Of a stretch of DNA of 64,000 bases, positions 22,191 through 40,508 are shown piece after piece. Position numbers and translations under genes: made by a program. The first letter of the stretch is position 1, and each line of letters starts with the position of its first letter. The notes under the pieces are model-generated. The model had not been told where the DNA came from and made no database searches. It was given only the letters and a program-made list of their open reading frames with translations. The DNA comes from Streptomyces sp. NBC_01439 (GTDB taxonomy: Bacteria > Actinomycetota > Actinomycetes > Streptomycetales > Streptomycetaceae), in the NCBI RefSeq assembly GCF_036227605.1, contig NZ_CP109487.1:9101001-9165000 (forward strand), given 5' to 3'.

Positions 22191-22482
22191 ACGTACCTCC
22201 AGCACTCGCTGCGGCGATGACGGCCAACGCGCACCGCCCATGATCCCCTCCGGGCGGGCCGCGGCACCAGAGGTGCGGGGGAGCGGCGCGCTGGGCCGTC
22301 GGCGCACCTGAGAATCGGCTGTGGGTCGGGGCGGCGGCACTCACGACCCTTGCGTGAAAAGCGAACAACAGCAAAAGTGAGCGTGAACAAGGTACCCACC
22401 GTTGCCGCTGAGCGCGCCGCTCCTGCCCGGGACGCTCGGCCGACCGGCTGCAGCGCACCGGCACCCCACACCGAGGTCGTAC

Positions 22483-24336: not shown

Positions 24337-24543
24337 CGCTTTCGCCCCGGCCATCATGCCCGGCCTTCGGCGGCGGCCACGGCGCGGGTCGGATTCCGGC
24401 CCCGTAGGGCGGCCGCGCCTCGCCCGCGGAGCCCCCGCCACCTGCTGTTCTGTAGATCTCGGTCCGGCGGATTGCCTTCCGCATATCCACGGCGAGCCCG
24501 GGCAGACGCTGACCACCGATCGGTGGCACAGGACGACGAGGCG

Positions 24544-25704
24544 ATGGGCGATTGCATGCGAAGCGTGGGCGTGGAGGAAGAGCTGCTGCTGGCGGACGCG
24601 GACAGCGGGGAGCCGCTGGCCGTGTCGGGAGCCGTGCTCGCCGAAGCCGACCGCGCCGCCGCAACCGCCGGTGCGGCGGACGGAAAGGACCCCGGCCACA
24701 CTTTCGAGGCGGAGCTCCAGGAGGAGCAGGTCGAGTTCGGCACGAGACCGGTGACGGAGATGGGCGAACTGCAGGAGGAGATCCTCCGGTGGCGCGCCGA
24801 GGCGGCCCGGCACGCCGCGGCGGCCGGTGCGGTCGTGGCGGCGATCGGCACCTCACCGTTGGTCGTCCGCCCCTCGATGTCCCCCGGACACCGCTACGAG
24901 TGGGTGTCGCGGCAGTTCGGCATGACCGCCCAGGAGCAGCTGACCTGCGGCTGTCACGTCCACGTGTCGGTGGAGTCGGACGAAGAGGGGGTGGCCGTAC
25001 TGGACCGCATCCGGCTCTGGCTGCCCGTACTGACCGCGATGAGCGCAAACTCCCCGTTCTGGCAGGGGGAGGACACCGGCTACGGCAGCTACCGCAGCCG
25101 GGTCTGGAACCGGCTGCCGGCCGCCGGGCCGGTGGACGTCTTCGGCTCCGCCGACCACTACCACGCGGAGGTGCGGGCCATGGTCGAGTCGGGCGTGCTG
25201 CGCGACACGGGGATGGTCTGGTTCGACGCGCGGCTGTCCGCGTCCTACCCGACGGTGGAGGTCAGGGTCGCGGACGTGTGCCTCGACGCGTCGACCCCCG
25301 TCCTGCTGGCCGCCCTCGTACGCGCCCTGGTGGAGACCGCGGCCCGGGAGTGGCGAGCCGGTGAGCCTCCGGCGAGGGTCAGCACCGGGCTGCTCCGGCT
25401 CGCGTCGTGGCAGGCGGGCCGCTCGGGACTGGACGGTCCCTTGTTGCACCCCGAAACACTGCGGGAGACCGCGCCCGAGGTCGCCGTCGACGCGCTCTAC
25501 CGGCACGTCGGCGAGGCCCTGGCCGACTCCGGCGACGAGGAGTTCGTGCGGGCCGCGATCGCCGGCCTCCTGGAGCACGGGAACGGCGCGCGCGTCCAGC
25601 GGAGCCTGCTGCGGTCGGAGGGGGACCTGGCCTCGGTCGTCCGGCACTGCGCGCGCCGGACCACGGCCGGCATCGACCGGGCGGCCCGGGACCTGCCGCG
25701 CTGA
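24544..25704 (+). CDS. Carboxylate-amine ligase, glutamate-cysteine ligase type 2 (YbdK-like)
   Basis: A 386-residue ATP-grasp-like ligase of the GCS2 family, which joins glutamate or a related acid to an amine; some members make gamma-glutamylcysteine weakly. Signatures are VGVEEELLLADADSG at the N-terminus, ELQEEQVEFGTRPV, GCHVHVSVESDEEG near residue 145 and the substrate-binding YPTVEVRVADVCLDA. Length fits the family. ATG 24544 is used; an ATG at 24556 (MRSVGVEEE) is almost as likely because the conserved region begins there. Actinomycetes use mycothiol rather than glutathione, so a role outside classical glutathione synthesis is probable. Monocistronic. Confidence 0.88.
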   Translation: MGDCMRSVGVEEELLLADADSGEPLAVSGAVLAEADRAAATAGAADGKDPGHTFEAELQEEQVEFGTRPVTEMGELQEEILRWRAEAARHAAAAGAVVAAIGTSPLVVRPSMSPGHRYEWVSRQFGMTAQEQLTCGCHVHVSVESDEEGVAVLDRIRLWLPVLTAMSANSPFWQGEDTGYGSYRSRVWNRLPAAGPVDVFGSADHYHAEVRAMVESGVLRDTGMVWFDARLSASYPTVEVRVADVCLDASTPVLLAALVRALVETAAREWRAGEPPARVSTGLLRLASWQAGRSGLDGPLLHPETLRETAPEVAVDALYRHVGEALADSGDEEFVRAAIAGLLEHGNGARVQRSLLRSEGDLASVVRHCARRTTAGIDRAARDLPR

Positions 25705-26089: not shown

Positions 26090-27451
26090 GTGAATGTCGT
26101 TCACATGTCCGACACATCTCGAGCCGCCACCGGTGGCCCTATGCGCTTGCGCGACTTCCGACTGTTACTCGCGGGAGCCGCCACCGGACAGTTCGGTGCA
26201 CAGGTGACACTGGTGGCGCTGCCCCTCGTGGCCGTCCTCGAACTCGACGCTCCCGCCTTCCAAGTGGGCCTGCTGACCGCCGCGGAGACCGCCGCCTTCC
26301 TGCTCGTCGGGCTGCCCGCCGGGGCACTCACCGACCGCATGCGCAAGCGGCCCCTGATGATCCGCGCGGACCTGGTGCGCGCCGTGGCCATGGCCAGCAT
26401 CCCCGTTGCCGCGCTCGCCGACGTCCTGACCATGGCCCAGCTGTACGCCGTCGCGCTCGTGACCGGCGTGGCGACCGTGTTCTTCGACGTCGCCCATCAG
26501 AGCTACCTGCCGCAGATCCTGCCCCGTGACCAACTCGTGGCCGGCAACGGCGCACTGGAGACCGTCCGTTCCACCGCCCAAGTGACCGGCCCCGGTATCG
26601 GCGGCGGCCTGGTCCAGCTCGTCGGAGCGCAGTTCGCGGTCATCGTCGACGCCATCGGCTACGTGCTCTCCGCCCTCTTCCTCCTGCGCATCGAGCGGGC
26701 CGAGGAAGCGCCCGAGCCCGCTGCTGCCGGAGGCTCCCTGCGCAAGGAGATCGGCGAGGGCCTCCGCTTCGTCTTCGGCCATCCGCTGCTCCGCGTCATC
26801 GCCCTCACGACCGGCCTCGCCAACTTCTCCACGGCGGTCCTCATGGCGACACAGACCGTGCACCTGGTCCGTGTCGTCGGCCTGGAGGCCGGCGGGCTCG
26901 GGCTGGTGCTGTCCGCGTCGGCCGTAGGAGGGCTCCTGGGTGCCCTGTGCGCCGGACGCATCGCCAACCGACTGGGGCAGGGCCGGGTCATCCTCCTGTC
27001 GCTCCTCGTGACCGGCCCGTTCGCACTGCTGTGGCCGCTGTCCGGGCACGGCGTCGCCGGAGCGGTCCTCTTCGCCGCCGGATCGGCGGTCGTCTCCTTC
27101 GGCGCCGTCGTCTACAACGTCGCCCAGGTCAGCTTCCGCCAGGGGATGTGCCCACCACGGCTGCTCGGCCGGATGAACGCCACCCTGCGCTTCCTCATGT
27201 GGGGCACCTTGCCGCTGGGCGCGCTCCTCGGCGGAGCCCTCGCCCAGTCCTACGGGTCGCGCACGGCACTCGCCTGGTGCGCCGTCGGCATCCTCGCCGT
27301 ACCGCTGCCGCTGCTGTTCTCCCCGCTGCGCCGGATGCGGGACCTGCCCGGTCCGCCGGACGACGGTGGCGCCGACGCCACCGACGGGACACCGCGGGAC
27401 ACGACCTCCGCCGGAGGCGACGAACGGCCGGCCCCCGCACCCACCGCCTGA
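26090..27451 (+). CDS. MFS transporter, probable exporter of the NRPS product
   Basis: A 453-residue major facilitator with about twelve membrane segments (first LLLAGAATGQFGAQVTLVALPLVAV) and the loop 2-3 motif GLPAGALTDRMRKRPLMIRAD. It resembles EntS-like drug/siderophore exporters (MFS_3 type). The C-terminal tail of about 40 residues is hydrophilic. GTG 26090 gives the longest plausible form; ATGs at 26105 and 26141 are alternatives, as no strong ribosome site marks any of them. A TTA codon at 26165-26167 lies close to the start in any case, so synthesis should need the bldA tRNA. It heads the NRPS gene row and most likely exports the peptide or confers self-protection. Confidence 0.88.
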   Translation: MNVVHMSDTSRAATGGPMRLRDFRLLLAGAATGQFGAQVTLVALPLVAVLELDAPAFQVGLLTAAETAAFLLVGLPAGALTDRMRKRPLMIRADLVRAVAMASIPVAALADVLTMAQLYAVALVTGVATVFFDVAHQSYLPQILPRDQLVAGNGALETVRSTAQVTGPGIGGGLVQLVGAQFAVIVDAIGYVLSALFLLRIERAEEAPEPAAAGGSLRKEIGEGLRFVFGHPLLRVIALTTGLANFSTAVLMATQTVHLVRVVGLEAGGLGLVLSASAVGGLLGALCAGRIANRLGQGRVILLSLLVTGPFALLWPLSGHGVAGAVLFAAGSAVVSFGAVVYNVAQVSFRQGMCPPRLLGRMNATLRFLMWGTLPLGALLGGALAQSYGSRTALAWCAVGILAVPLPLLFSPLRRMRDLPGPPDDGGADATDGTPRDTTSAGGDERPAPAPTA

Positions 27452-27557
27452 CCACCGCCCGACCACCGTTCGGCGAGCGGGGACGACCCCTGAGCGCGCA
27501 CCGCGCCCGCCGCCACACCGTTCCGCGAGCGACCGCGGCCACGACGAAGAGGACCAC

Positions 27558-28847
27558 GTGCTCAGCATCACGAGTCAGTACCTGGCCCTCTACCGGCGCC
27601 TCGCCGGCGACCGGTCCGACACCCTGCTGCCGGTCACCGGAGCACAGCGCCGCTTCCTGCTGGTGCGTTCGCTGGACCCGTCCGGACGCCCCGACGTGGT
27701 GCCGATGTTCTTCGCGTTCCCGTCCGCAACCGTCGACCCCGAACGCCTGCGGGCAGCGGCATCCAGGCTCGCCGCACGGCACACCGCCCTGCGCTCACGG
27801 CCCGACGTCGTCCGCGGCACACCCGTCCTGCGCGTCGCCGATCCGGACGTCACCGTGACCCGATCGGCCCTCGTACCGGGGGAGTCGCCCGCCGACGGGC
27901 TCCGTCGCGCGCTGGCCTCCTGGGACGCGCAGGGTCCCCCCTTGCGGCTCTTCCTCGTACACGACGAGCAGCGCGAGGAGGACATCCTCGCCGTCGCCCT
28001 GGACCACGCCGTCTGCGACGGCCGTTCACTGGCACGGATCGTCGACGAACTCGGCGCCGCGTACGGCGAGGAAGCCCCCAGACCCCAGGTAGAACCGGAG
28101 GAGACGGAAGCCGAACTCGCCGCCTACCGGGACGCGGTCCTGAGTCAACTCGCCGCCGAGGAAAGGGCGGAGACGCCCGAAGCGGCCGCGTACTGGGCGG
28201 ACCGGCTGCGCGCGCTGCGCGCCCACGCCCCGGCCCCCCGTCCGGCGCGCGTGCCCGAGGGCGCATGGCCCAGCGGCGCCGCGCAGGCCCGGCTGCCCGC
28301 GCACGACGGTGGCGTGTCCTTCCCCGGGCTGCTCGACGCCTGCCGCTCCGCCGCCCGCGAGCTGTACGGCCCCGGCCGCGCGGTCCCGCTCGGCTACCCG
28401 TGGGGCGGCCGTCCCACGGGAGCGGAACCGGTCGTCGGTTGCTTCCTCAACACCCTCGTCTTCCCCACCTACACCGGCCACGGACCCGGCCCGGAAGTGA
28501 CCGCCGACGCGTGGTGGGACGATCTCGACCGGGCCGACGTACCGTTCGACGCGGTCGTGACCGCGGCGCGGGCCGCCGGCTCGGCCTGGACGGGAGGCCT
28601 CGACGGACTGCTCACCGTGGACGACGACAGCCGTCGCCCGCCCCTGACGCTCGCCGGCGTCGAGGGACGGGAGGTCCACGTCGACGGCAGACCGGTTCGC
28701 GGTCCCTTCGCCGTCTCCGTCACCCAGGGAGCGGAGATCCGCGTGCAGATGGCGTGGGACCGGGCGGTGTTCGACGACGAGACCGCGCACCGGGCCTTCG
28801 ACGCGCTCAGCCGGGCGCTGCGCCCCTCGGAGCACACCACGCAGTGA
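27558..28847 (+). CDS. Free-standing condensation-domain protein
   Basis: A 429-residue protein spanning a single NRPS condensation domain, with no carrier or adenylation part. It opens SDTLLPVTGAQRRFLLVRSLDPS, the domain's C1 region. The catalytic motif reads DHAVCDG (residues 149-155): the second, catalytic His is kept but the first His of HHxxxDG is Asp. Later GYPWGGRPTGAEPVVGCFLNTLVFP matches the C5 region. It could form a peptide bond in trans, acylate the first residue, or catalyse release, as free-standing C domains do elsewhere. GTG start with AGAGGA upstream. It is 106 bp after the exporter and 299 bp before the first full module. Confidence 0.85.
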   Translation: MLSITSQYLALYRRLAGDRSDTLLPVTGAQRRFLLVRSLDPSGRPDVVPMFFAFPSATVDPERLRAAASRLAARHTALRSRPDVVRGTPVLRVADPDVTVTRSALVPGESPADGLRRALASWDAQGPPLRLFLVHDEQREEDILAVALDHAVCDGRSLARIVDELGAAYGEEAPRPQVEPEETEAELAAYRDAVLSQLAAEERAETPEAAAYWADRLRALRAHAPAPRPARVPEGAWPSGAAQARLPAHDGGVSFPGLLDACRSAARELYGPGRAVPLGYPWGGRPTGAEPVVGCFLNTLVFPTYTGHGPGPEVTADAWWDDLDRADVPFDAVVTAARAAGSAWTGGLDGLLTVDDDSRRPPLTLAGVEGREVHVDGRPVRGPFAVSVTQGAEIRVQMAWDRAVFDDETAHRAFDALSRALRPSEHTTQ

Positions 28848-29146
28848 CCCCGTCGCCCGGACGCCGCCGAAGGCTCCGGGAACGACGCGCACCCGTGACC
28901 TCCCGCCACACCACCGACCCGCGGCCACCGCGCACCGGTGCCCACGCGCAACCGCAGCGCTCGGCACCCGGCACCCGGTACCGCAGCGCAGCCCACGCGG
29001 CCGTGCACCCCGAACTTCCCCACGGCATCCCCCCACGGCCCCACCCGTGGAACGCGGCACCGCGCGACCCGCGAAGCCGCCCGCACGACCACCGGACACG
29101 ACCGTGACCGGCACGGAGACCGACCCGACAACCTCAGGGATCGCCC
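28848..29146. other. Gap inside the NRPS gene row
   Basis: No gene is supported here on either strand; the long frame beginning at 29047 is a shadow of the C-A-T gene. The only useful signal is AGGGA eight bases before the ATG at 29147. An internal promoter is possible but not visible. Confidence 0.5.
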
Positions 29147-32100
29147 ATGCTTCCCCTCTCCTCCTCGCAGGAGATCGTCTGGCTGCACGAGCAGATGCAG
29201 CCCGGCAGTCGCGCCTACAACTTCACCGCTTCACTGGACCTGTGGGGCACCCTCGACAGCGAGGCGCTGCGCCGGGGGCTCGAAGCCACCTTGGCCCGCC
29301 ACCCCGGCCTGCGGCTCGAACTCGTCGCCTCCACCGGGTCGGTACCGGCGCAGCGGGTCGCGCAGCAGTGCGCGCCGCGACTGCGCACGGTCGACCTCAG
29401 CACCGAGGAGGACCCCGACGCGGCCTTCGCCCGTCTCCTGCGCACCGAGGCCGAGACACCGCTCGACACCTTCGAGGCACCGCTCATCCGCTGGACGCTC
29501 GTGCGACTGGCCGAGCGCCACCACCGCCTGATCCACGTCGAGCACCACCTGATCCACGACGGGCACTCCTTCGCGATCCTGCTCGACGACGTCTTCCGCG
29601 TATACCGCGCCCACGTCCTCGGCGAAACCCTGGAGCTCCCGACCGCCTCCTCCTACGCGGACCACGTCCAGGAGCGGGCCGAGGCCGCGTACGCCCCCGC
29701 ATCGCTCGACTTCTGGCGGGCCGAACTGCGCGACCAGCAGCACGACCTGCCGCTGCCCGGTCTGACCCGCCCCGGCGCCCGGCGCAAGCACCACGGCGGA
29801 CAGCTGCGCCAGACGATCGGCGCGGATCTCGCCGAACGCCTGCGCACGCACGCCCGCGAACGCGGACTCACCCCCTTCTCCACGCTCCTCGGACTCTTCG
29901 CCGAACTCCTGCGCCGGCACAGCGGCCGCTCCCGCATGGTCATCGGCACCGCCGTCGGCAACCGCCCCCTCGGCTACGAGGACGCCGTGGGCATGTTCGT
30001 CAACACCATCCCACTGCCGCTCGTCCTAGACGGCGCGGCCCCCGCCCAGGACGCCATGGACGAGGTCACCGACACCCTCATCCGGGCCCTGCCGCACCAG
30101 GACGTACCGGTCCAGGAGCTGACCCGGGCGCTCGGCATGCATACCTCCGGCGCCGACAACCCGCTCTTCTCGGTCATGTTCAGCGCCCACGACGCACCGC
30201 TGCCCGAGATCGACGTGCCCGGTCTCGACATCACCCTCTTCGAGGGCTTCAACACCGGCACCACCCGCTTCGACCTCGACGTGGTCCTGCTCCCGGACGA
30301 CCGGCGCGGCGTCACCCCGCGCCACGGATCGCCCGGTATGACGTTGGTCTGGGACTACGACATGGACCTCTTCGGCGAAGACGTCGCCCGTCTCGTCTCC
30401 GGCCGCTTCCTGGACCTGCTGCGCGCCTACCTCGACAGCCCCGAGACTCCGCTGGCCGACCTGCACCCGACCGTCGCGGAGCCGGCCGCCGCGCCCGTGC
30501 CCGTCCCCGCCGACCGCGATCCGCTGGACCCGGTGGCCGCGCACCACCCGTCGCTGCCCGCCCTGCTGTGCGGCGCCCGCCGCCTCACCTACGGCGAACT
30601 CGACGAACGCGTCGGCTCGCTCGCCGAGCGACTGAAGGCCGCCGGTGTGACCCCCGGTCGGCCGGTGGCCGCGGTCCTGCCCAGGGGGACCGAATCGGTC
30701 GTCGCCCTGCTCGCCTGCCTGCGGACCGGCGCCGTCTACTGCCCGCTCTCCCCGTCCGACCCGCCGGCCCGGCTCGGACTGCTGCTGGAACGGCTCGCTC
30801 CCGCGCTCGTCCTCATCGGCGACGCCACCCCGGCCCTGCCCGAAGCACTGCCGACCGCCCGGATCGACGCCCCGGTACTGCCGTCCGCGCACGGAACCGC
30901 CGAACTTCCCGGCACGGCGTACGTCATCCACACCTCCGGATCCACCGGCACGCCCAAGCCCGTCGCCGTCGGTCCCGAGGCACTGGTGCACCACATGACG
31001 GCGACCGCCGACCGGTTCGGCCTCACCATCTCGGACCGGGTCCTGATGTTCGCCCAGCCGTCCTTCGACGTGGCGCTCGAGGAGGTGCTGCCGACCCTGC
31101 ACGCCGGTGCGTGCCTGGTCCTGCCCGAGCACGAGGTACCCACGGGCGCGGAGCTCGCCGAACTGCTGACGTCCGCCCGGGTCACCGTCGCCAACCTGCC
31201 CACCAGCTACTTCCTCGCCACCCGCGAGGACCTGCGTCCCGCCCTGCGCGACGAGAGCTGGACGCCCAGGCTCCTGGTCCTCGGCGGCGAGCGCCTTCCC
31301 GTGGAGGCACTGCGCGGTGTCCTCGCCGACACCGACGCCACCGTGCTCAACGCGTACGGCGTCACAGAGGCGGCCATCAGCTCGACCGTCCACGAGATCT
31401 CCCGCGACGCCCTCGCCGAGGGGTCCGAGATCCCCCTGGGCACCGAGCTCCCGGGCGAGCGGGTCCACGTCCTGGACGCCCACCACCGCCCGCTGCCGTC
31501 CGGCGCCGTCGGCGAACTCGCCGTTGCCGGACCCGGGCTCGCCCAGGGCTACGCGGGCAACGCGGAGGCGACGGCCGCCCGGTTCGTCCACGTCGAGGCA
31601 CTCGACGGGCAGCGCGTCTACCTCACCGGGGACCTCGGCTACCGTGGTCTGGACGGCCTGCTCTACTTCCTCGGGCGGCGCGACCACCAGATCAAGCTGC
31701 GCGGTCACCGCATCGAGCTGGAGGAGATCGAGGCGGCCGCCTCCGCAGTGCTGGGCGGCCGGTCCTGCGCCGTCGTACTGGACCGGGAGGGCCCCGGCGG
31801 GCCCCGGCTCGTCGGCTTCCTCGAAGACGGGGCAGAGGGCGCGGCCTTCGACGAGAAGGCCCTGCACGCCGAGCTGAGCCGCCGCCTGCCCGGCCCCCTC
31901 GTGCCCGCCCGGTGGGCACGGCTGGACAACATGCCGACCCTCGCCGGCGGCAAGCCCGACCGTACGGCACTGTCCCGCCGGGCCGCGGCGCTCGACCCCG
32001 ACGAAGCCACGGCAACGCCCGAGCCCGGAACCAGCTCCGAGCCCGGCGCGGCCCCCACGGACGTGTCCGACGATCCGATGACGGCCTTGCTCACCGAAGG

Positions 32101-32308
32101 CTGGCGCACGGTCCTCGGCCACAGCCGGTTCGACGCCCGCTCCCACTTCTTCCACAGCGGGGGCCATTCCCTGCTGGCGGCCGAGCTGGCCGCCTGGCTG
32201 GAGCCCCGGCTGGGCACGCGCCCGCCGCTGAAGGTGCTCTTCCGCAACCCCGTGCTCGCCGACCAGGCCGATGCCCTCGCCACCACCGCCCTTTCCACGG
32301 AGTCGTGA
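29147..32308 (+). CDS. Nonribosomal peptide synthetase, C-A-T module
   Basis: A 1053-residue complete elongation module. The condensation domain (1-440) has HHLIHDG at residues 133-139 with both His, and an LCL-like start (SSSQEIVWLHEQMQPGSRAYNF). The adenylation domain (about 460-950) has TSGSTGTPKP at 596, NAYGVTEAAI, YLTGDLGYRG, RDHQIKLRGHRIELEEIE and the Lys in AGGKPDRTAL. The carrier motif SGGHSLLA places the phosphopantetheine on Ser1008. By alignment with GrsA I read the specificity residues as D-V-E-N-V-G-A-I-S-K, which partly matches the hydroxyornithine code D-M-E-N-L-G-L-I-N-K; this is tentative. The next gene starts on TGATG. Confidence 0.95.
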   Translation: MLPLSSSQEIVWLHEQMQPGSRAYNFTASLDLWGTLDSEALRRGLEATLARHPGLRLELVASTGSVPAQRVAQQCAPRLRTVDLSTEEDPDAAFARLLRTEAETPLDTFEAPLIRWTLVRLAERHHRLIHVEHHLIHDGHSFAILLDDVFRVYRAHVLGETLELPTASSYADHVQERAEAAYAPASLDFWRAELRDQQHDLPLPGLTRPGARRKHHGGQLRQTIGADLAERLRTHARERGLTPFSTLLGLFAELLRRHSGRSRMVIGTAVGNRPLGYEDAVGMFVNTIPLPLVLDGAAPAQDAMDEVTDTLIRALPHQDVPVQELTRALGMHTSGADNPLFSVMFSAHDAPLPEIDVPGLDITLFEGFNTGTTRFDLDVVLLPDDRRGVTPRHGSPGMTLVWDYDMDLFGEDVARLVSGRFLDLLRAYLDSPETPLADLHPTVAEPAAAPVPVPADRDPLDPVAAHHPSLPALLCGARRLTYGELDERVGSLAERLKAAGVTPGRPVAAVLPRGTESVVALLACLRTGAVYCPLSPSDPPARLGLLLERLAPALVLIGDATPALPEALPTARIDAPVLPSAHGTAELPGTAYVIHTSGSTGTPKPVAVGPEALVHHMTATADRFGLTISDRVLMFAQPSFDVALEEVLPTLHAGACLVLPEHEVPTGAELAELLTSARVTVANLPTSYFLATREDLRPALRDESWTPRLLVLGGERLPVEALRGVLADTDATVLNAYGVTEAAISSTVHEISRDALAEGSEIPLGTELPGERVHVLDAHHRPLPSGAVGELAVAGPGLAQGYAGNAEATAARFVHVEALDGQRVYLTGDLGYRGLDGLLYFLGRRDHQIKLRGHRIELEEIEAAASAVLGGRSCAVVLDREGPGGPRLVGFLEDGAEGAAFDEKALHAELSRRLPGPLVPARWARLDNMPTLAGGKPDRTALSRRAAALDPDEATATPEPGTSSEPGAAPTDVSDDPMTALLTEGWRTVLGHSRFDARSHFFHSGGHSLLAAELAAWLEPRLGTRPPLKVLFRNPVLADQADALATTALSTES

Positions 32309-34206
32309 TGACCCAGTCCCCGATCGCAGTCGTCCTTCCCGCGACGCCCACCGACACCGGACCCGCGCTGAGCGTCGCCCACGGTCCCTCCGCCGAACCG
32401 ACCGGAGTGCTCGCCCACTTCGAGGAATGGGCCCGGCGCACCCCGCAGGCCCCGGCAGTGATCGACCGCACACAACTCTGGACGTACCAGGACCTCGACG
32501 CGGCGGCCGAGCTGGTCGCCGCGGACCTGGCCGACCGCGTCCGCCCCGGTGACCTGGTCGGCGTCTGCCTCGACCGGTCCACCGCCCTGGTGGTGACCGC
32601 CGTCGCGCTCGCCCGGCTCGGCGCCGTCTACCTACCGCTCGGCCCCCGCCCCGGCGAGCGCCGCATCCAGGCCGTCACCGAGGACCTCGACGTCACCTGC
32701 CTCATCGGCGACCCCGGCGTCCTGCCCGCGGAACACCGCAGCGGGGAGCACGTCCCGCTGCCGCTGCCCACCGGCGGTGTCAACGCCCCCACCACCGCGG
32801 TGGCGGCCTTCGCCGACTCCGTCCGAGGCGTCCGGCGCGCACCCCGAGGAGCCTTGTACGCCGTCCTCACCTCCGGTTCCACCGGCCGCCCCAAGGCGGT
32901 CGCCGTGGCCGAGTCCTCGCTGTCCGTCGCCCTCGACTGGTACCGGGCCGAGACCGGCCTCGCACCGGGCGACCGCCAGTCCCTGCTCATCGGCGTCGCG
33001 TTCGACCCGCACCTGCTCGAACTGTGGGCCGCCCTGACCTCGGGTGCCGCCCTCGTCCCGGCCCCGGACGACACCCGCTGGGACTCGCACGTACTCACCG
33101 ACTGGTGGCGTGACACCGGCCTCACCCACGCCGTGGCGGCCACTCCCACCGTCGAACCGCTCCTGGACCGGCCCTGGCCGCAGGGCCTGAAGCTGCGTCA
33201 CCTCGTCGTCGGCGGCGACCGCATGCGCCGCCGCCCCGGCGCCGACGTCACCGCGACCGTCCACAACGCCTACGGCCCCGCGGAAGCTACCGTCGTCACC
33301 ACCACCCATACCATGCGCGGCACCGACCCGGAAGCCGGCGACCCGACCCCGCCCCCCATCGGCACCGCACTGCCGGGCGTCACCCTCGTCGTCACGGACG
33401 ACGGGGGCCGCCCCGTCGCCCGCGGGCAGGAGGGCGAACTGCGCATCGGCGGCCACTGCCTGGCGCTCGGCTACCTCGACCCCGAACTCACCGCCCGCCG
33501 GTTCACCTCGCCCGCGCCGGAACCGGCACTGCCGGAGATCGACCGCCTCTACCGCACCGGCGACCGGGTACGGATGAACGCCGACGGCAGCCTGGACTTC
33601 CTCGGCCGCCTCGACGACCAGGTGAAGATCAGCGGCGTGCGGATCGAACCGGTCGAGGTGGAAGCCGCCTTCGAGCATGACCCCCGGGTGCGCACCGCCG
33701 TCGTCACCGTGCTGCGCGACAGCTCCGGCCACGGCCGCCTCGTCGCCCACGTACGGCCCGCCGACGGCGTCGAACCCACGGCGGGGGACCTCCTCGACGC
33801 CGTCCGGTCCTGGCTTCCCGAGCAAGCCGTCCCCACCGCCGTACGGATCGTCGACGGCTTCCCGCTCGACGCCAACGGCAAGGTGGACCGGCCGGCCCTG
33901 GCAGCCCGGGCCACCGGCGCACCCCGGAGCGCCACCACGGACGAGCCCGCAGATGCCACCGCCTCCGCCTCCGAGCTGCTCGTGCTGGGGGCGCTGCGCG
34001 ACCTCCTCGGCCGGCCCGGCATCGGCCTCGACGACCACTTCACCGACGCCGGCGGCACCTCCGTCGTCGCCGCACGACTGCTGGCAACCGTCGAACGCGA
34101 GACCGGAGTGCGCCTGCGCGCCCCCGAGCTGCTGCGCAGCACCGACCTGCGCGCCTTCGCCGCCCTCCTCGACCAGCGCCGGACCCCGCGCCCGGAAGGA
34201 GCCTGA
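32308..34206 (+). CDS. Nonribosomal peptide synthetase, A-T didomain
   Basis: A 632-residue adenylation-carrier protein without its own condensation domain, so it is either a loading protein or is served by a C domain in trans. ATP loop TSGSTGRPKAV lies at residue 188, then HNAYGPAEATVV, YRTGDRVRMNADG, RLDDQVKISGVRIEPVEVE and catalytic Lys in ANGKVDRPAL. Phosphopantetheine Ser585 is in DAGGTSVVAARL. The inferred specificity residues are D-P-L-A-V-G-A-V-V-K, which I cannot match to a known substrate. The ATG overlaps the previous stop (TGATG), and the next gene begins one base after its stop, so the whole row is translationally coupled. Confidence 0.94.
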   Translation: MTQSPIAVVLPATPTDTGPALSVAHGPSAEPTGVLAHFEEWARRTPQAPAVIDRTQLWTYQDLDAAAELVAADLADRVRPGDLVGVCLDRSTALVVTAVALARLGAVYLPLGPRPGERRIQAVTEDLDVTCLIGDPGVLPAEHRSGEHVPLPLPTGGVNAPTTAVAAFADSVRGVRRAPRGALYAVLTSGSTGRPKAVAVAESSLSVALDWYRAETGLAPGDRQSLLIGVAFDPHLLELWAALTSGAALVPAPDDTRWDSHVLTDWWRDTGLTHAVAATPTVEPLLDRPWPQGLKLRHLVVGGDRMRRRPGADVTATVHNAYGPAEATVVTTTHTMRGTDPEAGDPTPPPIGTALPGVTLVVTDDGGRPVARGQEGELRIGGHCLALGYLDPELTARRFTSPAPEPALPEIDRLYRTGDRVRMNADGSLDFLGRLDDQVKISGVRIEPVEVEAAFEHDPRVRTAVVTVLRDSSGHGRLVAHVRPADGVEPTAGDLLDAVRSWLPEQAVPTAVRIVDGFPLDANGKVDRPALAARATGAPRSATTDEPADATASASELLVLGALRDLLGRPGIGLDDHFTDAGGTSVVAARLLATVERETGVRLRAPELLRSTDLRAFAALLDQRRTPRPEGA

Positions 34207-34207
34207 C

Positions 34208-36043
34208 ATGACACCCACCACCCTGCGGCCCGCCGCCCCGGCGACCGCCCTGCCGGCACTCGTCGCGCGGCACGCCGAACTCACCCCCGACGCCCTCGCC
34301 GTCGTGGACGGCGACACCACCCTCACCTACGGCCGACTCCTCCAGGCCGGCCACGCCCTCGCGGCACACCTGCGCACGCAGGACGTGGCTCGCGGCGACC
34401 GGGTGGCGCTCCTGACGGCGCGGTCGTCCCGCACGGTCGTGGCGCAGCTCGGGCTGTGGCTGGCGGGAGCCGCGTGCGTGCCGCTCGATCCCGCCCAGCC
34501 CCGCCCGCGTACCGAGGCGATGATCGCCGACGCGGAGGTGACGCTCACCATCGGCGACGCGAAGCTGCTGGACGCGGCCGCACTCCCCGGCCCCGTCCTC
34601 GCCCTGCCCGAGGAGCCGCTCACGACCGGTCGACCGGTCGACGAGTCCGACCCGGACAGCCCGGCATTCATCATGTTCACCTCCGGATCCACCGGCCGCC
34701 CCAAGGGCGTCCTCGTACCGCACCGGGCCATCACCGAGCTGGTCACCGCGCCCGACTACGTCACCCTCACCGGCCGCGACCGCGTCCTGTTCCACTCGCC
34801 GATGACCTTCGACGCCTCCACGTTCGAGGTCTGGGGCGCGCTCGCGGGCGGCGCCGCGGTCGTCGTCTGCACCGAGCAGCGGCCGTCCTTGGAGGACCTC
34901 GCCCGGCACGTCGAACGGCACGGCGTGACCGTGGCCTTCTTCACCACGGCCCTCTTCCACCAGCTCGCCGCACGTCGCTCCCGCGTCTTCGCCCAGCTCC
35001 GATCGGTCGTCGTGGGCGGCGAGGCGATGGCCGCCGCGCCGGCCCGTGAAGTGCTCACCGCCTTCCCCTGGCTGGAGCTCGTCAACGGCTACGGGCCGAC
35101 CGAGACCACCACCTTCGCCACCGCCCACCGGGTCACCGGGCAGGACTGCGCCGGGCCGATACCGATCGGCAGGCCCATCGCAGGGGCCACCGCGCACGTC
35201 CTGGACGCCGAAGGGCACCCGGTCGCCGACGGTGACCGCGGCGAACTGTGGATCGGCGGCAGCAGGCTCGCCCACGGGTACACGGGCCTGCCCGCACTCA
35301 CGGCCGAACGCTTCGTCGAGCATCCCGCCGCCGCCGGCGAGCGGCTCTACCGCACGGGCGACATCGTCTCCCTCAGGCCCGACGGCATCCTCCACTTCCA
35401 CGGCCGCAACGACGACCAGGTGAAGATCCGCGGCTTCCGCATCGAACCGGCCGAGGTCGAACACGCCCTCCGTGAGCAGCCGGACGTGGACGACGCTGCC
35501 GTCGCCGTCGACGTCGCCGGCACCCCCGGGGCCCGCCTCGTCGCGTTCGTCGTCCCCGCGCCCGGCCCCGTACCGCACGGCGCGGCACTGCGCGAGCGGC
35601 TCACCGCAGTCCTGCCCGCCCACCTGGTTCCCGACACGGTCACCGTGCTGGAGCGGCTGCCCCTCACCCCGGCCGGCAAGGTCGACCGCCGCGCCCTCGC
35701 CGCACGCGCGCACACCGCCGAGAGCCCGCCCGCCGACGAGCCGGCGGCGCAGATGACACCGCTGGAACAGGCCGTCGCCGAGGTGTGGAGCCAGGCCCTG
35801 GGCGTCGAGGTCACGCGCGCCGACGACGAGTTCCTCCTCCTCGGCGGCCATTCCCTCCTCGCCCTCGCCGTCACCGACGACCTGCGCGAGGAACTCGGTG
35901 TGGAACTCTCCCTCGCCGAGTTCTTCGCCGCCCCGACCGTCGCAGCCCAGGCCGCGCTGGTCGAACGCGCACTCCTGGCCGCCCACGCAGACCTCCACCC
36001 CGAGACCGAGACCGAGACCCCGGAGCACAGCGATGTCCACTGA
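34208..36043 (+). CDS. Nonribosomal peptide synthetase, second A-T didomain
   Basis: A 611-residue adenylation-carrier protein. Core motifs: TSGSTGRPKGVLVPHRA at residue 158, SPMTFDASTFEVWGAL, NGYGPTETTTFAT, YRTGDIVSLRPDG, RNDDQVKIRGFRIEPAEVE, catalytic Lys in PAGKVDRRAL. Carrier Ser549 is in LLGGHSLLALAV. The specificity residues read D-A-F-F-V-G-G-T-F-K, very close to the valine code D-A-F-W-I-G-G-T-F-K that I recall, so Val or a similar branched residue is likely. No condensation domain. Its C-terminal acidic tail (ETETETPE) overlaps the start of the final NRPS gene by 11 bases, in another frame. Confidence 0.94.
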   Translation: MTPTTLRPAAPATALPALVARHAELTPDALAVVDGDTTLTYGRLLQAGHALAAHLRTQDVARGDRVALLTARSSRTVVAQLGLWLAGAACVPLDPAQPRPRTEAMIADAEVTLTIGDAKLLDAAALPGPVLALPEEPLTTGRPVDESDPDSPAFIMFTSGSTGRPKGVLVPHRAITELVTAPDYVTLTGRDRVLFHSPMTFDASTFEVWGALAGGAAVVVCTEQRPSLEDLARHVERHGVTVAFFTTALFHQLAARRSRVFAQLRSVVVGGEAMAAAPAREVLTAFPWLELVNGYGPTETTTFATAHRVTGQDCAGPIPIGRPIAGATAHVLDAEGHPVADGDRGELWIGGSRLAHGYTGLPALTAERFVEHPAAAGERLYRTGDIVSLRPDGILHFHGRNDDQVKIRGFRIEPAEVEHALREQPDVDDAAVAVDVAGTPGARLVAFVVPAPGPVPHGAALRERLTAVLPAHLVPDTVTVLERLPLTPAGKVDRRALAARAHTAESPPADEPAAQMTPLEQAVAEVWSQALGVEVTRADDEFLLLGGHSLLALAVTDDLREELGVELSLAEFFAAPTVAAQAALVERALLAAHADLHPETETETPEHSDVH

Positions 36044-38990
36044 CACCGACTCCGCGGCCCGCGGCAGCCGGCAGCAACTCCAGCAGGAGCTGCTGCGCCG
36101 GGCCCGCGCCGGAACCGCCCGCCGCGCGACGGCCGGAGCCGAGCCGATCTCCGGCGCGGGCACCGGCCAGGACGGCCACGCATCCCAGACCGAAAGCGCC
36201 CCCCTCTCCCGCGCCCAGCGCCGCATGTGGCTGATGGAGCGGCTCGGCGGCGCGGGCGACTCGTACCACGTACCGTTCGCCACCCGGGTACGCGGTCCGT
36301 TCGACGTGGCCGCGTTCGCCACCGCCCTCACGCGGCTGGTGGCCCGGCACGGCATCCTCCGCACCCGCTACGCGGAGCGCGCGGGCGAGCCCCACCAGGA
36401 GGTGCTGCCCACGCCGCGGACGGTCCCCGTGCACGTGGTCGACGCCGGCCCGACGGACGCCCCGGACCTGCTGCGGCGCGAGTCGGCCCGGCCGTTCGAC
36501 CTCGCGGCCGGCGACGCGGTACGGGCCCTCGTCCTGCGCCACGGCCCGCAGGACCACACCGTGCTGCTGACGTTCCACCACATCGCCGTGGACGGAGCCT
36601 CACTGGAGACCGTGGCCACCGAGCTCGCCGTCCTCTACACGGCGGCCACCGACGGAACGGGTCGACACGCGCTCGCCGCACCGCCGCAGTACGCCGACCA
36701 CGCACGCCGCGAGCACGACGACCTGCCCGGCTTCGAGGCGGAACTGAACCGCTGGAGCGACCTACTGGCCGACGCCGCCCCGCCGCGCCTGCCCCGGCCG
36801 GCGGCGGCCGCACCCTCCACAGCGGCGCGCCCCGGTGCCGCGCACACCGTTCCGTTGGCGCCGGAGGTGCCGGATACCCTGCGGGCGCTGGGAGCACAGC
36901 GGCAGGCCACGCTCTTCGCGGTGTCCCTCACTGCGGCCTTCGCCGCACTGCACCGCCTCACCGGCGACGACGACCTCGTCATCGGCGTGGCGGGCACCCA
37001 CCGCAGCGGAACCGCCATGCGCGGCCTGGTCGGCCTGTGCGTCAACACCCTGCCCGTACGGGTGGACGTCTCCGGCGACCCGTCCTTCGCCGAGCTGCTG
37101 CGCCGCGTGAGCGACGCGCTCCTCGAAGCCCAGCGCCACCGGCACATCCCCTTCGACCTGGTCCTCGAACGCCTCGGCGCCGGGGCCCGCGGCGCCGACG
37201 GCACCGCACTGGTCCGTGTCACCTCCGACGTCCTCGGCGAGCCGACGGTACTGCGGCTGCCGGGTACGACGGCCGAATACGTCGACATCCCCTCCGACGG
37301 CGCGAAGTTCACCCTGTCCTACGGCCTGCTCCCGGGCGACGACGGTGCACCGCCCCGGGCGCTCCTCCAGTACGACGCGAACACGCTGGACGACACCGTG
37401 GCGGAGGCGGCCGCACGGGACTACGCGGCCCTGCTCCACGCGGTCGCGGACGACCCGGAACTCGCCCTGAGCAAGCTGCCCCTCCCCGGTCCGAGCGGCG
37501 GCTCCGGCCCCGGGGACGGAGCCGACCGGGACGGCGACCGCCACCCGGCCGCGCAAGCCCTGCGCGCCCACCCGAGCGTGGCCGACGCCATGGTGGTCCA
37601 GCCCGAACAGGGGTCGTCCGTGGCCTATGTCGTCCTGCACGACAGCTTCGGCCCGTCCGGTCACGAACTGCTGGGCCTGCTGCGCCGGTCGCTCGCGCCC
37701 GGGGCCGTGCCCGCCACGGTCACGCTGCTCGACGCGCTGCCGCGCTCGGCCTCCGGGACGCTCGACCCCGCCCGGCTGCCAGGGCCGTCCCTACCGAGCG
37801 CCCCGTCCGGCCCGCGGGCCCGGGCGATCGAGGAGGGCTTCACCGCCGTGCTCGGCGTCGCCCCGTCGCCGGACGACGACTTCTTCGCCCTCGGCGGCCA
37901 CTCCCTGAAGGCCGTGCAGCTCGCCGAACGGCTGCGTACGGACCTCGGCCTGCCGCTCACGGGCCTCGACGTGCTCCAGGCCCGCACCCCCCGGGCGCTG
38001 ACCGTGCTCCTCGACGAACGGGCGGCGCAGCAGAGCGCCGCGAAGACCGTGAGCAGGCCGGCCCCCCGTTCCCGGGACGTTCGCCCGGGCACCGTGCTCG
38101 TCACCGGCGCGACGGGTGGCGTGGGCGCGTTCGTCGTACGTGAACTCGCCGCCCGGGGCCGTCCCGTGCTGGCCCTGGCCCGCCCCGAGTCCGCCCATCT
38201 GATCGCCACCGAGGGCGTCGACGTCATCGAAGGCGACCTCACCGACCTGGCCGAGCTGCGGGACGCCGTCGCACAGGCGGACGCGGTCGTCCACGCCGCC
38301 TGTACCTTCACCCGGCACGACGTGGACCTGGCGGCGATGGAGGCGATGGTCGACGCCTGGCGGCGCGGACCGTTCGTCTTCGTCAGCAGCGTCGACGCCT
38401 ACGGGCATCCCGGGACGGACCGGGTCGCCGAGGAGTCGCCGCCCCACGAGCCCGTCAGCCCGTACGGGAGGGCCAAGCTCGATTGCGAGGCCATGGTGTT
38501 GCGCGCCGCGGGGACCGAGGGGCGCGGGGGCGCGAGCGCCGTACGGTCGCCGATCGTCTGGGGCGCGCACGACCGGCTGCGCGAACAGTTGCGCTGGGGC
38601 GCCCTCGGCACCCTCTACCAGTCCGCCCTCCAGGGCCGGCCGATCGACCTGCCGCGCCCCGGTACCGGCGGACACGACTGGTACGGAGCCGCCTGGGTGC
38701 ACGCGGCCGCCCTGGCCCGTGCGGTGGCCGCGTGCCTGGAACGGCCCGTGCACGGAGTCGCCAACGCGTGCAGCGGCCACGTGTCCTGGCACGACCTGGC
38801 ACAGGACCTCACGGAACTGCTCGGCTCCCGCGCGGACATCCGGGGGACCGGGGCGGTCCCGCGGGACCTCGATCACCGCTGGCACTACGACAGCGCCCGC
38901 CTGGCCCGTCCACTGCGCGCCCGCCCGGGAGAGGACCGGCGGACCGTACTGGCCGAGATGATCGACGCCATGCCACCCGACAACGGCTGA
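36033..38990 (+). CDS. NRPS termination protein: C - adenylation remnant - T - short reductase
   Basis: A 985-residue protein. A disordered start (1-55) precedes a condensation domain with intact HHIAVDG at 182-188. Residues 504-582 look like only the C-terminal subdomain of an adenylation domain (HPSVADAMVVQ, SVAYVVLHD, then ALPRSASGTLDPARLPG). The position of the A10 catalytic Lys is Thr576, and the whole ATP-binding core is missing. The carrier follows (FFALGGHSLKAVQLAE, Ser624). Residues 687-985 are an NAD(P)-binding extended short-chain dehydrogenase: TGATGGVGAFVVREL, FVFVSSVDAYG, and YGRAK with Tyr811/Lys815. It is shorter than classic thioester reductases. Reductive release to an aldehyde or alcohol is inferred. 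Confidence 0.9.
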   Translation: MSTDTDSAARGSRQQLQQELLRRARAGTARRATAGAEPISGAGTGQDGHASQTESAPLSRAQRRMWLMERLGGAGDSYHVPFATRVRGPFDVAAFATALTRLVARHGILRTRYAERAGEPHQEVLPTPRTVPVHVVDAGPTDAPDLLRRESARPFDLAAGDAVRALVLRHGPQDHTVLLTFHHIAVDGASLETVATELAVLYTAATDGTGRHALAAPPQYADHARREHDDLPGFEAELNRWSDLLADAAPPRLPRPAAAAPSTAARPGAAHTVPLAPEVPDTLRALGAQRQATLFAVSLTAAFAALHRLTGDDDLVIGVAGTHRSGTAMRGLVGLCVNTLPVRVDVSGDPSFAELLRRVSDALLEAQRHRHIPFDLVLERLGAGARGADGTALVRVTSDVLGEPTVLRLPGTTAEYVDIPSDGAKFTLSYGLLPGDDGAPPRALLQYDANTLDDTVAEAAARDYAALLHAVADDPELALSKLPLPGPSGGSGPGDGADRDGDRHPAAQALRAHPSVADAMVVQPEQGSSVAYVVLHDSFGPSGHELLGLLRRSLAPGAVPATVTLLDALPRSASGTLDPARLPGPSLPSAPSGPRARAIEEGFTAVLGVAPSPDDDFFALGGHSLKAVQLAERLRTDLGLPLTGLDVLQARTPRALTVLLDERAAQQSAAKTVSRPAPRSRDVRPGTVLVTGATGGVGAFVVRELAARGRPVLALARPESAHLIATEGVDVIEGDLTDLAELRDAVAQADAVVHAACTFTRHDVDLAAMEAMVDAWRRGPFVFVSSVDAYGHPGTDRVAEESPPHEPVSPYGRAKLDCEAMVLRAAGTEGRGGASAVRSPIVWGAHDRLREQLRWGALGTLYQSALQGRPIDLPRPGTGGHDWYGAAWVHAAALARAVAACLERPVHGVANACSGHVSWHDLAQDLTELLGSRADIRGTGAVPRDLDHRWHYDSARLARPLRARPGEDRRTVLAEMIDAMPPDNG

Positions 38991-38995
38991 CACAC

Positions 38996-39036
38996 CGCGT
39001 GCGCCCGGAGCCTCCAGGACACTCCGGGCGCACGCG
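38996..39036 (+). terminator. Strong terminator hairpin closing the NRPS operon
   Basis: CGCGTGCGCCCGGAG (38996-39010) and CTCCGGGCGCACGCG (39022-39036) form a perfect 15-bp stem with an 11-base loop, starting six bases after the final NRPS stop codon. It lies between convergent genes and may act in both directions. No T-tract, as usual in this genus. Confidence 0.88.
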
Positions 39037-39122: not shown

Positions 39123-40211
39123 CTATTGCGGTTTCGGGCCCTTCATCAACTTGCTGAGCTGTTCCAGGGGGCCCTCCGTCATGCCCCGGACGTAGTCCCA
39201 GCCGTTGTGGTCGCCGCCCTGGATCTCGTGGATCGTGACCTTGATCGGCTCCTTGCCGAACTGCTGCTGGAACTTCTCCATCCGGTCGCGCCCGCCCTCC
39301 TTGGTGCCGTACTGGAAGAGGATGTCGACCGCGGGGCCCTTGTCGTTGATCAGCTTCGGGGCGAGCTTTTCGGGGTTGTTCGCGTCCATTTCCGCCTGGT
39401 GGCCCTTCCAGAGCGGGGAGTCCGGGACGATCTCGCCGCCGTTGGCGATGACGGCCCGGAAGCGGTCCGGCTTCTGCAGCAGCTGTTTGAGGCCGACGAA
39501 GGCGCCGGAGGAGTTGCCCATGAAGGCCCAGCCGTCGCGGGACTTGTACGTACGGAAATTGGCCCGGGCGAGGTCGGGCACGTCCTCGCCTATCCACGTG
39601 CCCATCTTGGCCTGGCCGGGTATGTCGGAGCCGTCGTAGTAGTACTTGGCGTCCGGGTTGAGGATCGGCATGACCAGGATGAACGGGAGGCTCTTGCCGG
39701 CTGCGGCGCCTTCGGCAACGGCCTTCTGGAGACCCAGCTTCGGCATGGTCGCCCAGTAGTTGTCGGCGTTCCCGTTGCCTCCGGGCAGCGCGATCATGAC
39801 GGGGAAGGCGCTCTTGGCGTACTCCGGGCGGTCGTATTCCTTGGGAGTCCACACCCAGACGCTGCCGTCGAAGCCGGACTTGGCGCCCTTCACGCGGGCC
39901 TTGGATATTCGGGTGCCGTCGTCCAGCTTGACCGTCTGCTTGAAGTCGGTGAAGGGCCCGGAGGGGAGGGAGACGTCCGGGTCCGCGCTCGGGGCGGAGG
40001 CCTGTTTCCCGCCGCCGGTCTCCTTGTTGCCGTCCGCAGGGGCAGCGGGCTTCCCGTAGCTGACGGACGCGCCGTTCCCGTCGAACCAGTCCGTCGTCCA
40101 GTAGATCAACCCGGCGCCGGTGCCGGCGAGCAGGGCCACCGCCACCCCGGACGCGATCCACACCTTCCTGCGGGATCGCCTGGGCTGCTGCGGCTGCGGG
40201 TACTCGTGCAC
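39123..40211 (-). CDS. Membrane-anchored or secreted esterase (esterase D / antigen 85-like fold)
   Basis: A 362-residue alpha/beta hydrolase. Residues 1-12 are basic and proline-rich, then one hydrophobic segment (KVWIASGVAVALLAGTGAGLIYW) acts as a signal anchor, followed by a low-complexity linker. The catalytic domain has the nucleophile elbow FMGNSSGAFVG (GxSxG), a candidate acid in VDILFQYGTKEGGRDR, and His in QGGDHNGWDYVRGM. These features fit the esterase D/PF00756 group that includes mycolyltransferases and feruloyl esterases; the present enzyme is most likely an esterase. GTG 40211 has GGAG eight bases upstream; the TTG at 40313 would add an unconvincing extension. Confidence 0.83.
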   Translation of the reverse strand: MHEYPQPQQPRRSRRKVWIASGVAVALLAGTGAGLIYWTTDWFDGNGASVSYGKPAAPADGNKETGGGKQASAPSADPDVSLPSGPFTDFKQTVKLDDGTRISKARVKGAKSGFDGSVWVWTPKEYDRPEYAKSAFPVMIALPGGNGNADNYWATMPKLGLQKAVAEGAAAGKSLPFILVMPILNPDAKYYYDGSDIPGQAKMGTWIGEDVPDLARANFRTYKSRDGWAFMGNSSGAFVGLKQLLQKPDRFRAVIANGGEIVPDSPLWKGHQAEMDANNPEKLAPKLINDKGPAVDILFQYGTKEGGRDRMEKFQQQFGKEPIKVTIHEIQGGDHNGWDYVRGMTEGPLEQLSKLMKGPKPQ

Positions 40212-40508
40212 GAACTTTGCTCCGAACGGGGCGGCTGCCCTCGGGCGGGCAGAACGGGTGGGTTCTCCTCTTTGGATGTGTTCTGGACCCGAAGGGTTGC
40301 AAAAAATGCGCAATTAATATCGTTCATATTTCAAATGAGCGCGTCCGTGTCGTTGCCCCACCGGCACGGACGCGACGTGCGAAGGACCGGCCACGCCCCC
40401 GCGCGACGGGAGGTCAGCCCCAGCGGGCCAGCGGCCCGCGGCGGGTTCGTCCGACAGACCCGAACTAGACGGCGCCGTGCGGTCGGGCCACGGGGGCCGG
40501 CTGCCGGT

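Follow-up and report, generated by a model that had tools for sequence, protein, structure and literature searches.

The omicsynins are ureido pseudo-tetrapeptides in which residues 2-4 vary and which end in an aldehyde or an alcohol (PMC12783407). Their cluster (omn, from Streptomyces sp. 1647) has five nonribosomal peptide synthetase (NRPS) genes with only three adenylation (A) domains, and is described as homologous to the clusters for deimino-antipain and chymostatin (PMC12783407). The reductase (R) domain of OmnF is about 300 residues long and distinct from classical R domains; its deletion abolished omicsynins and left carboxylic acids (PMC12783407). The antipain cluster (anp; MIBiG BGC0002051 in PMC10548850) is likewise built of discrete NRPS modules (PMC12783407), and MAPI belongs to the ureido group (PMC10548850). 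Here we compare these systems with a six-gene NRPS operon of Streptomyces sp. NBC_01439, analysed within a stretch of 64,000 nucleotides (the window) that covers positions 9101001-9165000 of a single-contig genome of 9578283 bases. The original prediction, made from this stretch alone, had put the operon forward as its best candidate for an undescribed system. We confirm the architecture, with no part of it missing, and find that it fits a described family: the published omicsynin cluster, too, combines five NRPS genes and just three A domains. The operon is an ordinary member of that family and not an undescribed system. Very probably, it is a discrete NRPS cluster of the antipain/chymostatin/MAPI/omicsynin family that makes a ureido-linked pseudo-tetrapeptide aldehyde inhibiting serine or cysteine proteases.

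Architecture of the operon

Open reading frames (ORFs) and Pfam matches place six plus-strand genes at 26090-38990, encoding an exporter of the major facilitator superfamily (MFS), a free-standing condensation (C) protein, a C-A-T protein (T, carrier domain), two A-T didomain proteins and a terminal C-(A remnant)-T-R protein, in the order and at the place originally predicted. The free C protein (27558-28847, plus strand, 429 residues) is a distant member of PF00668, scoring 49.4 bits where the cut-off is 30.6. The C-A-T protein (29147-32308, plus strand, 1053 residues) combines a ureido-type C domain with an Arg-like pocket, as read from its Pfam domains, motif and pocket residues. From their Pfam domains and pockets, we propose that the first A-T protein (32308-34206, plus strand, 632 residues) is the loading module for an N-terminal aromatic residue, and that the second (34208-36043, plus strand, 611 residues) supplies Val, Leu or Ile. 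The terminal protein (36033-38990, plus strand, 985 residues), with matches to PF00668 (205 bits), PF13193 (35.5 bits, residues 508-575), PF00550 (43.6 bits) and PF01370 (79.6 bits), is proposed to release the product reductively as an aldehyde. The exporter at the head of the operon (26090-27451, plus strand, with a start possibly at 26105) matches PF07690 with 111 bits and PF05977 with 92.5 bits, and probably exports the product; its score against TIGR00900, 240 bits, is under the family cut-off of 319.6.

The Pfam tally is three Condensation, three AMP-binding, four PP-binding and one NAD-dependent epimerase/reductase-type domain, which agrees with the three A and three C domains counted before, the free C protein being the weak match among them. 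In the terminal protein, an AMP-binding_C remnant stands without an AMP-binding core, so that it is indeed adenylation-less, and no thioesterase domain was found within the six genes, also as predicted. Three C domains and four T domains fit three bonds and four residues. The T domains had not been counted when a three-residue product was suggested; together with the ureido-type C domain, they point instead to a ureido-linked tetrapeptide aldehyde. With four residues, one of the three A domains must serve two carriers. Cooperation of the modules in trans and release by reduction, the latter probable, are both in line with the domain anatomy or with the published family.

The six genes had been called coupled. 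The junctions among the last four are tight, with a 1-bp overlap, a 1-bp gap and an 11-bp overlap; the exporter and free C genes lie about 100 bp apart, and the free C and C-A-T genes about 300 bp apart. No gene was recognised in this last interval (28848-29146), and the corresponding matched segments are 129-508 bp apart in 26 homologous loci. An internal promoter or leader here is possible.

Our comparison with homologous loci used one genome per species and exact peptide patterns, and so covers closer relatives only. A relative of the terminal protein is encoded in 28 named Streptomyces or Kitasatospora loci, and in 26 of these the gene order, which the original prediction had proposed to compare, matches in all six genes and in strand, with the exporter at the head. 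Loci L030 and L034 run into contig ends; the matches are partial for the exporter in L024, L028 and L033 (at the locus edge) and for the second A-T gene in L024. When the window and its relatives are counted together, every C-A-T protein (28/28), first A-T protein (28/28) and terminal protein (29/29) carries GGxS, the carrier motif, as do 27 of 28 second A-T proteins, the exception being L024.

The omn cluster resembles this operon, by its description, in having five separate NRPS genes that share out three A domains; its ureido product is established, while ours is predicted. The terminal reductases are also alike. By the boundary that we chose, the R domain spans residues 685-985, about 300 residues as in omn, and omnF was amplified as a fragment of 2847 bp, against 2958 bp for the terminal gene here (PMC12783407). 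Our reductase fits the pattern of the family, a short (about 300-residue) extended short-chain dehydrogenase/reductase (SDR) with TGxxGxxG and YxxxK: TGxTGxxG is present in 29 of 29 sequences, and Tyr811 and Lys815 of the YxxxK motif are invariant (22/22). The omn cluster differs in having a regulator (omnR), an arginine cyclase homologue (omnC) and an SDR gene (omnG), none of which was recognised among the window neighbours scanned, a set that does not include every ORF.

The ureido-type condensation domain and the free C protein

A ureido product is indicated by the active site of the C domain in the C-A-T protein. It reads VEHHLIHDGHS, in which EHHLIHDG fits the motif EHHxxHDG. This motif is found in all 28 sequences compared (27 loci and the window); L030 starts inside the operon, without the C-A-T gene, and was left out of the count. 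As a control within the same genome, one of 39 places matching PF00668 carries the motif, some of these places being fragments, and the back-translated motif pattern occurs twice in the genome, here and at 9328546, the latter outside all 39 Condensation matches.

According to PMC11212132, conservation of EHHxxHDG sets the C domains that form a urea apart from all others in MIBiG, which lack it, and the motif is called necessary and sufficient for ureido formation on current MIBiG examples. The same paper reports that in SnaA substitution of the motif's Glu, or of one or other of two of its His residues, impairs or abolishes product formation, and lists antipain among the cases in which ureido formation has been confirmed experimentally. 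The C domains of syringolin, pacidamycin and SnaA described there share this active site with our C-A-T protein, while syringolin, pacidamycin and threopeptin represent other product contexts than this operon. Our domain also has a Ser two residues past DG, a feature that the paper also describes in amide-forming domains. Furthermore, of the two residues on either side of the urea, the inner one is usually fixed by the ureido-type C-A-T module and the outer one by a loading A-T module (PMC11212132).

We propose that the free C protein joins the second residue to the third. A search of the PDB with a profile of 18 free C homologues found NRPS chains only (24 distinct sequences); His150, Cys153 and Asp154 are shared by every one of 18 sequences. 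The Gly of its HHxxxDG motif is replaced by Glu in L028 and L033.

Predicted product and the source of the fourth residue

We extracted the A-domain pockets at the standard ten positions from 28 sequences per A domain. The C-A-T pocket is DVENVGAISK, and all 28 sequences fit DVENVG[AV][IV][ST]K. The second A-T pocket, DAFFVGGTFK, is similarly constant (D[AG]FF[VI]G[GA]TF[KR] in 28/28). The first A-T pocket is DPLAVGAVVK in 14 of 28 sequences and altered in the others, most of all in L033 (DPQPTGAVTK). We take DVENVGAISK to be an Arg code, DPLAVGAVVK an unusual and possibly aromatic one, and DAFFVGGTFK a Val-like one. On these presumed codes, the C-A-T and second A-T pockets would fit Arg at position 2 and a branched-chain residue at position 3. 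PMC8399532 gives the second A-T pocket a near neighbour, DAFWLGGTFK, for Val.

From these elements, a complete pathway can be proposed. The first A-T protein would load an aromatic amino acid. The C-A-T protein, with Arg on its T domain, would use its C domain to bridge the two residues by a CO unit, forming the urea bond and reversing the chain. By precedent, this CO unit would come from bicarbonate. The free C protein would then hand the chain to Val, Leu or Ile on the second A-T protein, and the terminal C domain would add a fourth residue, held on a T domain that has no A core beside it and that would be charged in trans by another A domain. The reductase would free the chain as an aldehyde, which the MFS protein would export. 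Directly observed are the domain content, the ureido motif, the residues of the pockets, conservation and a remnant that lacks its catalytic Lys; on this basis, the most likely product is predicted to be Phe/Tyr-CO-Arg-(Val/Leu/Ile)-(Phe/Tyr or Arg)-al. Calculated [M+H]+ values for candidate ureido aldehydes are 596.319 (Phe-CO-Arg-Val-Phe-al), 605.352 (antipain), 610.335, 612.314 and 619.368.

Within the terminal protein, mean identity to the window sequence is about 74% in the C domain, about 64% in the A remnant, 79% in the T domain and 80% in the R domain. In the alignment, the A10 position of the remnant is Lys in none of 29 sequences. HHxxxDG is found in the terminal C domain of the window and of 26 of the 28 loci. 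Of the other two, L030 is cut short, and L027 (10575-13625, from Streptomyces sp. NBC_01214), the locus nearest in identity, has HHIAVDA instead. If the fourth carrier were left empty, a ureido tripeptide would be released by reduction. The presence of only three A domains would fit this, as would the pseudo-tripeptide shunt products of the omnF R-domain mutant (PMC12783407). However, conservation of the terminal C domain and of GGxS in every terminal T domain, and the fact that the family's published main products are pseudo-tetrapeptides (PMC12783407), make an empty terminal module very improbable.

For the fourth residue of the proposed tetrapeptide, we consider two candidate A domains. In one case, the A domain of the C-A-T protein would also charge the terminal carrier with Arg, giving aromatic-CO-Arg-Val-argininal, which is antipain itself if the variable residues are Phe and Val. 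This is a credible outcome that we hold tentatively. Omicsynin Bs have argininal ends (PMC12783407), and an NRPS cluster of S. antarcticus has been published as identical to antipain, for a strain not specified among three. Locus L012 bears the strain name of the type strain, H27-S2, and its three pockets together differ from those of the window at one position. In the other case, the loading A-T protein (32308-34206) would charge the terminal carrier with an aromatic residue, giving aromatic-CO-Arg-Val/Leu-phenylalaninal or -tyrosinal. MAPI is an aromatic aldehyde relative of this kind, and we regard such a product, too, as plausible but provisional. It gains from the described homology of the chymostatin cluster to that of the omicsynins (PMC12783407), and from S. 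rimosus, where BGC 35 carries a deimino-antipain label at 66% and goes with chymostatins A-C. The same example counts against reading an argininal end out of an antipain label, since that label leaves the terminal residue undefined. Chymostatin differs from our prediction in containing capreomycidine (a standard in PMC12783407); next to this operon, we recognised no gene for that residue. A chymostatin cluster of S. mobaraensis is indicated by the title of a cited reference.

The origin of the A remnant might have spoken for the loading A domain, and in a first tree, built without outgroups from 29 terminal, 27 first A-T, 20 C-A-T and 12 second A-T sequences that a narrow pattern had retained, the remnant did stand beside it with a support of 0.975. 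This grouping was lost in a second tree of 14 sequences per gene (of 28-29) and nine outgroup A subdomains from the same genome, where a grouping with the second A-T protein plus one outgroup received 0.47. Mean identities to the remnant are 28% for C-A-T, 33% for the first A-T, 37% for the second A-T and 36% for the outgroups. We therefore do not use these trees as evidence. The dead A subdomain could conceivably be kept as a docking site through which a shared A domain is brought to the fourth carrier, and a change of the docked A domain would then alternate argininal and aromatic warheads; we consider this unlikely.

Several observations weigh against assigning the operon to the antipain family. 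Membership is argued indirectly, from published descriptions and cluster predictions rather than from a direct match to MIBiG BGC0002051, and we infer that the published 'antipain' regions are orthologous to this locus. In the published predictions for related strains, which themselves speak for membership, similarity to the anp reference ranges from 66% to 'identical'. An NRPS region is listed as deimino-antipain at 66% for both S. nojiriensis JCM 3382 and S. yangpuensis CM253, a figure which implies that some reference genes have no match in these relatives. The first A-T pocket departs from the standard Phe codes, and 'aromatic' is read from presumed codes and from the place of the protein. 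No MbtH-like protein is encoded in the window, as originally predicted, the five matches of the genome all lying elsewhere, and SnaA needed one in vitro (PMC11212132). Finally, no gene resembling the arginine cyclases OmnC and AnpI was recognised among the neighbours scanned by Pfam, a scan that did not take in every ORF or use AnpI as a query; TauD (PF02668), a presumed family for such a cyclase, has seven matches in the genome and none in the window. As for an entirely new assembly line with no relation to antipain, nothing speaks in its favour beyond the odd architecture itself, and the omicsynin description, the recurring gene order, the ureido motif and the pocket pattern make it extremely improbable. 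A match to a known cluster, which the original prediction had named as evidence against novelty, is found indirectly, through the published predictions for related strains, and it does not extend to the exact product.

Distribution and neighbouring genes

A search of protein sequences with the terminal protein found 416 relatives at E <=1e-60 among 8000 scored candidates, with a S. nojiriensis protein of 86% identity among the best 120 of these. Proteins from S. rimosus, S. mobaraensis and S. albulus were not found among the best 120 of the 416, nor among the best 120 of 424 with L028 as the query. An orthologue is encoded in 5 of 36 sampled genomes of the same genus (G012, G016, G025, G034 and G036); other matches in this sample have 31-39% identity, mostly over the region of the C domain. 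The G012 gene for the terminal protein is interrupted between C domain and A remnant, within the linker; its halves (L055:7342-8823 and L054:5521-6978) lie about 285 kb apart on one contig of 9034319 bases, which suggests a chromosomal rearrangement or a misassembly.

The original prediction had also asked whether homologous loci always include further NRPS genes. Matches outside the operon range occur in only three of the 28 loci: several in L028, one A-domain region in L012 and weak ones of 63-78 bits in L013. In L034, the matches are the operon itself with its exporter cut off. The loci extend just 0-0.9 kb upstream of the exporter match. Extra NRPS genes are not a constant part of the homologous loci downstream, the reach upstream being below 1 kb.

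Three loci have an acyl-CoA dehydrogenase gene, identified by Pfam, between the C-A-T and A-T genes: L028:5718-6890 (Kitasatospora mediocidica), L033:5613-6779 (Kitasatospora sp. MAP5-34) and L056:7578-8732 (genome G036). Those of L033 and L056 are 91% and 79% identical to that of L028, and no match at E 1e-10 was found in the window or in the other 30 stretches compared. The gene may mark a branch of the family with a dehydrogenated residue or a different warhead.

We scored the recurrence of flanking genes by tblastn at E 1e-20 and rejected two candidates as cluster members. A GCS2 ligase gene (24472-25704) has its sole match among the 28 loci in L023, at 39% identity, on the opposite strand and about 7 kb past the terminal gene, and an esterase gene (39123-40313, minus strand) recurs, of the 28 loci, in L027 only. 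Two genes upstream of the operon, 22402-24336 encodes a Stealth-family protein in which CR1-CR4 are all matched. For absence on the upstream side, where the 28 loci reach 0.9 kb at most, the evidence is three longer stretches of about 2-3 kb (L056-L058), which contain no match to GCS2 or Stealth above 200 bits and 45% identity.

With its assignment to this family, an apparent orphan assembly line becomes the source of a predicted protease inhibitor, and its plan recurs across many Streptomyces species. The A domain that charges the A-less terminal carrier would decide whether the warhead is an argininal or an aromatic aldehyde, and hence the likely target protease.

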